NCBI GenBank assembly: GCA_011389555.1
Contig: JAABUD010000122.1
Span: 29,335 to 93,334, forward strand
DNA: 64,000 nt
DNA from: Desulfotignum sp.
GTDB taxonomy: Bacteria > Desulfobacterota > Desulfobacteria > Desulfobacterales > Desulfobacteraceae
Reading direction: 5' to 3'
Shown here: in pieces, positions 4,726 to 7,609 of the stretch
Layout of the letters: each line of letters opens with the position of its first letter
How positions within the stretch are numbered: the stretch's first letter is position 1
The notes under the pieces: generated by a model
What the model was told of the DNA's origin: nothing
Database searches by the model: none
What the model saw: the letters and a program-made list of their open reading frames with translations, nothing else
Made by a program: the position numbers and the translations under genes

Positions 4726-6192
4726 ATGACAAGAAAAATTCTGATCAATGCAATGGATCCGGATGTCAGCCGGATCGCAGCTGTCATCGACAGCAAACTG
4801 GACCAGTTTCACATTGAAACCCGGGCCAGGGAAGTTACCCAGGGCAACATTTACAAAGGGATCGTCACCCGGGTGGAGCAAAGTCTTCAGGCGGTATTTG
4901 TGGATTACGGGGCGGAAAAAAATGGATTTTTACAGAAAAATGAAATCCATCCCGACTATTTTCAGGACGTGGAATCCCGGGACAAGTCGTTGTTCAACCT
5001 GATCAAAAAAGGCCAGGAACTCATTGTCCAGGTGGTCAAAGATCCCATCAGCCAGAAAGGGGCCATGCTTACCACCTTCATCTCCCTGCCCGGCCGTCTG
5101 GCCGTACTCATGCCCGGCAGCACCACCAAGGGCGTGTCCCGGAAAATCAGTGAGGAGGATGAAAGAAAACGGCTGGCCAAAGTGCTCAAAACCATGGAGA
5201 TTCCGGAAGGGTTCGGCATGATCGTGAGAACCGCGGGTAAAAATGCCACCAAAACCCAGCTGACCGCGGACCTGAAATATCTGATGCGGGTATGGAAAAA
5301 TATCGACAAACTGGCCATTGACAATCCGGCACCCTCGCTGCTCTACAAAGAACAGAACCTGGCGGTGCGCTCTCTGAGAGATTATTTCACCACGGATATC
5401 ACTGAAATTCTGATTGACAACCCGGACATCTATCGGGAAGTCAAGGAATTCATGGCCATGATCGCCCCGAAACAGAAAAAAATTGTCAAACTGTTCAAAG
5501 GGGAAAAACCGATATTCACCAAATATCAGCTGGAAGAACAGATCGCCTCCATCTTTAAAAGGGATGTGCCGTTGAAATCCGGTGGATTTCTGGTGATCGA
5601 ACAGACCGAGGCCCTGGTCTCCATTGATGTGAACTCCGGCAAATCCACCAAGCGGAAAAATATTGAAGAAACCGCCTATCATACCAACCTGGAGGCGGCC
5701 GAGGAAGTGGCCAGACAATTGCGTTTGCGGGATATGGGCGGGCTTATTGTGGTGGATTTCATCGATATGCGGGAAAGACGGCACAAGGCGGACATCACCA
5801 AATGTCTGAAAAAAAATTTAAAGACCGACAAGGCCAAAACAAAGGTCGGAGGGGTCACGACCTTCGGGCTGCTTGAAATGTCCAGGCAGCGCATCCGGCA
5901 CTCCATCACCTTCGGCAGCTATGAAACCTGCCGCCACTGTAACGGCCGGGGACAGATCCCATCTGTGGAAACACAGGGACTGGCCGTTATACGTCAATTG
6001 AATCTGAAAACGCTGAAGGCGGAAAACAAACAGTTCCAGGTGTACCTGCCCAAAGACGTGGCGTACTATATTCTTAACAAAAAAAGAGAGGACCTCCTTG
6101 AAATCGAAACCAAGCGGGAGGTTTTGGTTGCCATTGAGATCGATCCGGAACTGGTCCCGGGCCAGAGCCGGATTACTGACAACGCCCAATAA
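4726..6192 (+). CDS. rng: Ribonuclease E/G family protein
   Basis: S1-like N-terminus (GNIYKGIVTRVEQSLQAVFVDYGAEKNGFL), SIDVNSGKSTKRKNIEETAYHTNLEAAEEVARQLRLRDMGGLIVVDFIDM, and CRHCNGRG zinc-link. Confidence 0.93.
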   Translation: MTRKILINAMDPDVSRIAAVIDSKLDQFHIETRAREVTQGNIYKGIVTRVEQSLQAVFVDYGAEKNGFLQKNEIHPDYFQDVESRDKSLFNLIKKGQELIVQVVKDPISQKGAMLTTFISLPGRLAVLMPGSTTKGVSRKISEEDERKRLAKVLKTMEIPEGFGMIVRTAGKNATKTQLTADLKYLMRVWKNIDKLAIDNPAPSLLYKEQNLAVRSLRDYFTTDITEILIDNPDIYREVKEFMAMIAPKQKKIVKLFKGEKPIFTKYQLEEQIASIFKRDVPLKSGGFLVIEQTEALVSIDVNSGKSTKRKNIEETAYHTNLEAAEEVARQLRLRDMGGLIVVDFIDMRERRHKADITKCLKKNLKTDKAKTKVGGVTTFGLLEMSRQRIRHSITFGSYETCRHCNGRGQIPSVETQGLAVIRQLNLKTLKAENKQFQVYLPKDVAYYILNKKREDLLEIETKREVLVAIEIDPELVPGQSRITDNAQ

Positions 6193-6272: not shown

Positions 6273-7231
6273 ATGAGTCGAGGCAGAGCGAGTCACAAAC
6301 CATGGATAGCCATCGGCATGATCGTTTTGGCCGTTCTTTTGATTGTCGCGTATCTGTTTTTACCCCGGAGGACGGAGCCGGTGCCCGAAGCCGGCGTGTC
6401 TTCGGTATTGAAAAAAAACAAAACGGAGCGATCCGAACCTGTGGATGCAGCAAAAGCCCTTGATGTATTGGAACCTGTAAGTGCAGCTGAACCTGTAAAT
6501 GCAGCTGACACTTTAATGCAGCTGATATTGTGGATGTACCGGAACCGGTGACTGAAACACAGGTCTCCACATCCGCCTCGGTGATGCGGACCCGCCCCCG
6601 GGTGGTGGAAAAACAGATCGTGAGACCGCCGGTGTATGCGTATGACAATCTGGAGACAGGCTCGGAGTTTGACCGGTTGATGAAAAAAAGATTGGAGGAA
6701 ACAGGTATAGAAACCAGCCTGGATATGGTAATTCTGTCCAATGAATCCTTTACCATGGGTGATACCACCGTATCCATGCCCGATGTTTTAGAAAAGGCCT
6801 GTGCCCAAAAAAAGAAAATTCATGAAACCCGGATTACGGAATTTGAACAAACCGCACTGGAACCGATTCACAGATATGGCATCTATGTGGTCCAGCCCGG
6901 CGACAACATCTGGGACATTCATTTCAGTATACTGAAAGAATATTATGCATCCCGGGGTATTCATGTTGCCCGGGATGCGGATGAACCCATGGATACCGGA
7001 TATTCATCAGGGGTCGGGAAAATCCTGAAATTTTCTGAAATCATGGTCATTATCTACAATGTGTTGGATGAAGAAATCGTGATGGATATTGATCTGATAA
7101 AACCGCTGAGTAAACTGGTCATCTATAAATTGGATGAGGTGTTTGAACTGCTCTCGGAAATCGAAGTGAATCAAATAGATCAGATTCGATTCGACGGAAC
7201 GACGCTCTGGATTCCAGCCCCGGAAGCCTGA
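6273..7231 (+). pseudogene. Membrane-anchored LysM-like protein gene interrupted by a frameshift (N-terminal piece in ORF 6231..6551, C-terminal piece in ORF 6530..7231)
   Basis: Piece 1: RBS AAAGGA then ATG at 6273, TM segment WIAIGMIVLAVLLIVAYLFL, ending in EPVSAAEPVNAADT. Piece 2, in another frame, continues NAADIVDVPEPVTET and carries a LysM-like YGIYVVQPGDNIWDIHF motif. The frames join at a 17-nt copy of an 18-nt repeat. Confidence 0.75.
6435..6541 (+). repeat. Degenerate 18-bp (6-codon) tandem repeat; the fifth unit is 17 bp
   Basis: Units: gaacctgtggatgcagca / aaagcccttgatgtattg / gaacctgtaagtgcagct / gaacctgtaaatgcagct / gacactttaatgcagct (17) / gatattgtggatgtaccg. Confidence 0.8.
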
Positions 7232-7273: not shown

Positions 7274-7609
7274 TTGATTAGTACAGCATTTGCAATGGGA
7301 GCTACCGAAGGACAGGCAGCCGGCGGTTTGGCCGGATTTCTGCCCATCATTATTCTGTTTGCCATTTTCTATTTTCTTCTGATCCGTCCCCAGCAGAAAA
7401 AAGCCAAAGAGCATCGGGAAATGATTTCAAATTTGAAAAAAGGAAACCGGATTGTCACTTCCGGCGGAATTTACGGCACCATCACCTCCATCGATGATGC
7501 CTCCATCGGCCTTGAAATTGCCGAAAAAGTCAAAATCAAAATATCCCGAGGAAATGTGGCGGCCCTGGTTTCAGATAATGAAACAGCCGTCAAGTCCGAA
7601 AAAAACTAA
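7274..7609 (+). CDS. yajC: Preprotein translocase subunit YajC
   Basis: FAIFYFLLIRPQQKKAKEHREMISNLKKGNRIVTSGGIYGTI; directly upstream of secD-secF. Confidence 0.95.
   Translation: MISTAFAMGATEGQAAGGLAGFLPIIILFAIFYFLLIRPQQKKAKEHREMISNLKKGNRIVTSGGIYGTITSIDDASIGLEIAEKVKIKISRGNVAALVSDNETAVKSEKN

Follow-up and report, generated by a model that had tools for sequence, protein, structure and literature searches.

The window, the whole 64,000-nucleotide stretch of Desulfotignum sp. DNA that was analysed, carries between rng and yajC a gene that is split into two overlapping reading frames. The features of the locus are as follows.

4726..6192, + strand: rng, encoding an RNase E/G family ribonuclease (TIGR00757, E 2.8e-150), the upstream neighbour, which adjoins the gene in nearly all relatives
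6273..6551, + strand: the 5' fragment of the broken gene (ORF1), whose start matches the ATG of the homologues in translation
6435..6541, + strand: a lineage-specific array of five units of 18 nt and one of 17 nt (107 nt)
6507..6523, + strand: the 17-nt unit, at which the frame is lost in a unit-by-unit translation
6509..7231, + strand: the 3' fragment (ORF2), a stop-to-stop frame with the conserved C-terminal domain, 74% identical to single-frame homologues
7274..7609, + strand: yajC (PF02699, E 7.6e-32), the downstream neighbour, followed by secD and secF

From an N-terminus that is short and basic, ORF1 continues into a single predicted transmembrane helix and a linker with hexapeptide repeats, and it closes with a tail of 12-13 out-of-frame residues before the TGA stop codon at 6549-6551. 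An earlier note on this DNA had placed its start at GTG 6231; ATG 6273 fits better, with the resulting MSRGRASHK... aligned with the MRQAGSNHK... of the homologues. The frame of ORF2 opens at 6509, after a TGA at 6506, and the two ORFs overlap in different frames. Candidate start codons for ORF2 are GTG 6530, GTG 6548 (overlapping the stop codon of ORF1) and ATG 6584. ORF2 keeps the conserved residues of the family and departs from them at one column that is conserved in at least 31 of 32 homologues. No second copy of the gene was found elsewhere in the genome of the window.

Comparison with relatives bore out the proposal that ORF1 and ORF2 belong to a single gene split by a 1-nt frame error. 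An ORF2 homologue is present in 43 of 59 in the set of relatives plus the window genome, and every homologue that was translated reads as a single open frame, which encodes a transmembrane helix at the N-terminus, then a variable linker and then a conserved C-terminal domain; this includes all ten same-genus homologues. The order rng, gene, yajC is kept in nearly all relatives with a homologue, and some members of the family carry a long mid-protein insertion (L035). In an order-wide survey the gene was found in 126 of 243 genomes, and about half of the sampled genomes of the order have a member of this conserved family, which has no Pfam entry, at the site between rng and yajC-secDF. Open frames of less than 245 aa came, among the matches listed, from the window genome, G096, and G131, G039 and G110, the last three being cut by contig ends, leaving the window genome and G096 as the only ones of the 126 gene-positive genomes with a broken frame within a complete locus. 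The break in G096, a genome from another genus of the order, lies at another position, where part of the linker and the following conserved region are missing downstream of an intact rng (L090, reverse strand, ~1800-2470 of the reverse complement), and it is independent of that in the window. Because the other short frames are either contig-end cuts or this independent break, the break in the window is not conserved; rather than homologues consistently encoding two proteins with the same break, no other species has the arrangement.

The protein had been described as LysM-like. What stands of this description is the opening motif of the C-terminal domain, YxVQPGDNIWxIHF, of which about 13 residues align with the start of LysM; membership of the family is not supported. 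Pfam LysM (PF01476) matched neither ORF2 nor, among the matches listed, any of 33 homologues at E <= 1, and a whole-genome LysM search did not find the C-terminal domain of this gene. A profile comparison with five LysM domains of the window genome aligned 13 residues and then stopped, and NCBIfam PRK11198 gave a weak match in 6 of 33 family members (E down to 3.7e-05). The predicted model (mean pLDDT 76.7) has the order strand-helix-helix-strand, and Foldseek matched it to no solved structure, LysM included. Assignment to LysM was rejected, the Pfam, NCBIfam, PDB sequence, profile and fold searches together having given a match of at most 13 residues and the weak PRK11198 similarity. The protein resembles LysM proteins (PF01476; PRK11198) in its opening segment, the predicted order of secondary structure and the weak PRK11198 matches, but differs from them in the missing Pfam match, the short alignment, a long inter-helix stretch and the lack of a Foldseek match. 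Presumably it acts at the cell envelope, as its membrane anchor suggests, and carries a motif resembling LysM.

The junction lies in a repeat of 18 bp with a 17-nt unit, whose sequence and coordinates agree with the initial description. With the register set at 6435, the translated units are EPVDAA, KALDVL, EPVSAA and EPVNAA, followed by the 17-nt unit (6507-6523), DIVDVP and EPVTET. Tandem Repeats Finder returned two arrays in the 64 kb window, one of them at 6471-6525 (period 18, 3.1 copies, 84% match, 7% indels). From ATG 6273 the ORF measures 959 nt, compared with 852 nt in three sister species carrying the gene, and the excess of 107 nt (6x18-1) falls entirely within the linker and equals the span 6435-6541. 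The genes of these three species are intact and lack the array, which by this comparison is specific to the window lineage; the 18-nt repeat has expanded recently. No comparable DNA array was found in the linkers of relatives. In one homologue (L005 of G001, 213-600) the linker shows a degenerate 7-residue period (0/500 shuffles), which suggests more than one origin for the repeats in this linker.

Absence of the gene was observed in two congeners from the clade of the window genome, G010 and G012, in which rng is followed directly by yajC with gaps of 109 and 88 nt, respectively (L047 1489-1599; L048 1491-1580), while G004, G009 and G011 carry the gene intact. A protein tree built from eight neighbouring genes gave ((W,(G004,((G009,G011),G010))),G012), where W is the window genome; grouping of G010 with G004, G009 and G011 received 100% support, and the exact place of G010 in this intact group 69%. 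The order of the tree combined with the three intact genes indicates that G010 and G012 lost the gene separately, with the window genome possibly a third case, so that loss recurs in exactly the clade to which the window genome belongs. The gene is likewise absent from genera g2, g3 and g6 of the family, where yajC follows rng. Judged from these genomes, the gene is dispensable in related lineages and, as G010 and G012 indicate, has been lost repeatedly.

The best explanation for the locus, and in our judgement probably the correct one, is recent inactivation of a gene for an accessory, single-pass membrane-anchored envelope protein. The poorly conserved linker, which runs from the transmembrane helix to the C-terminal domain, would have gained the 18-nt repeat array in the window lineage, and one unit would then have become a base short, probably via replication slippage in the DNA of the living cell. 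Translation from ATG 6273 would consequently leave the frame and stop at 6551, leaving a product made up of the membrane helix and linker, with the conserved C-terminal domain detached from its membrane anchor and the function presumably lost. The clade may tolerate the break because the protein is dispensable, as the outright loss of the gene in two related species would suggest. The C-terminal part gave no signal of relaxed constraint: its dN/dS is 0.24-0.28 against the sisters, and codon changes number 8 nonsynonymous and 8 synonymous on the W branch versus 9 and 8 on the sister stem. With constraint unrelaxed, either the inactivation is very recent or an intact gene has been misread.

The second of these, a sequencing or assembly error, with a faulty consensus in the tandem repeat and an intact gene in the cell, is a serious possibility, if less likely than inactivation; assembly error and recent null mutation were both among the readings offered by the earlier note. 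The break is a singleton, it lies inside a repeat, the assembly is fragmented (317 contigs, 5.5% contamination), and, in the GeneTack classification of Antonov et al., frameshifts that are singletons and validated by homology (BLASTp) are expected to be mostly sequencing errors (PMC3711429); the unrelaxed constraint downstream would also fit. However, the split gene is the sole frame break among 41 gene comparisons covering ~48 kb of coding sequence. In a gene-level census, 40 of 41 genes were full length against G011 and 41 of 43 against G009, the other case against G009 being a partial match and not a split, and with no other frame break on the contig the local assembly is otherwise clean. 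A generally poor assembly was considered in view of frameshift-like pairs in raw tblastn output and rejected, as translation showed the three inspected pairs to be shadow matches, either upstream or antisense. Moreover, the 17-nt unit is not part of a long homopolymer and no other unit has its sequence, so a collapse of repeat copies alone would not yield 17 nt. That the only frame break in the compared coding sequence should land in the 107-nt array by chance has p ~0.002, a coincidence that is expected under both a real mutation and an artefact.

It is improbable that both ORFs are useful, be it by programmed −1 frameshifting to give the full protein or by reinitiation at GTG 6548-6550 to give a separate soluble C-terminal domain. 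ORF2 does lie in the −1 frame, its GTG start codon overlaps the stop codon (GTGA) in the right frame, and the C-terminal part is still constrained. By contrast, the overlap 6509-6551 contains no X XXY YYZ heptamer, and the earlier statement that the junction lacks a canonical −1 heptamer holds in the sense that none is usable there. The only in-frame canonical slippery heptamer, A AAA AAC at 6413-6419 in ORF1, lies upstream of the junction and leads into a −1 frame closed by TGA at 6461, 6488 and 6506. A run of eight A residues (6411-6418) contributes to this heptamer and is not conserved in the sister species. Downstream RNA structure is not unusual (z −0.98), the arrangement is found in no other species surveyed, and a separate C-terminal domain would be without the membrane anchor of the homologues. 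A programmed −1 frameshift was rejected, the searches for heptamers, homopolymers and RNA structure having yielded no usable signal around a break that is not conserved. More doubtful still is the specific proposal that stop-start coupling at GTGA 6548-6551 yields the C-terminal domain as a free product without an anchor, alongside a separately made anchor fragment; if true, a change of one base within a linker repeat that was expanding would have divided an anchored protein into two parts. Least credible of all is the on/off length-variable tract raised by the earlier note, a phase-variable gene switched via repeat copy number, for which the position of the break inside a tandem repeat of a membrane protein gene speaks, but which is unsupported because gain or loss of whole 18-nt units keeps the frame, the closest sisters are entirely without the array, and no congener or other relative shows such an off state with the same break.

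As a frame break, the event in this putatively inactivated gene is of an ordinary, already known kind, and a literature search on this locus returned no match. Its modest value lies in the recurrent loss, with a frame break in one and a clean absence in two of six related species. The envelope protein concerned is uncharacterised, and many relatives otherwise keep its gene stably in place between rng and yajC-secDF. The locus shares with simple-sequence-repeat contingency loci a repeat tract within the coding region, but differs from them in that its unit is a multiple of three, such that copy number cannot switch the frame. It is like the GeneTack singleton frameshift genes and recent pseudogenes (PMC3711429) in showing a break in one genome, intact homologues and no recoding signal; unlike in that class, the break here sits in a lineage-specific 18-nt repeat and is accompanied by two congeners without the gene.
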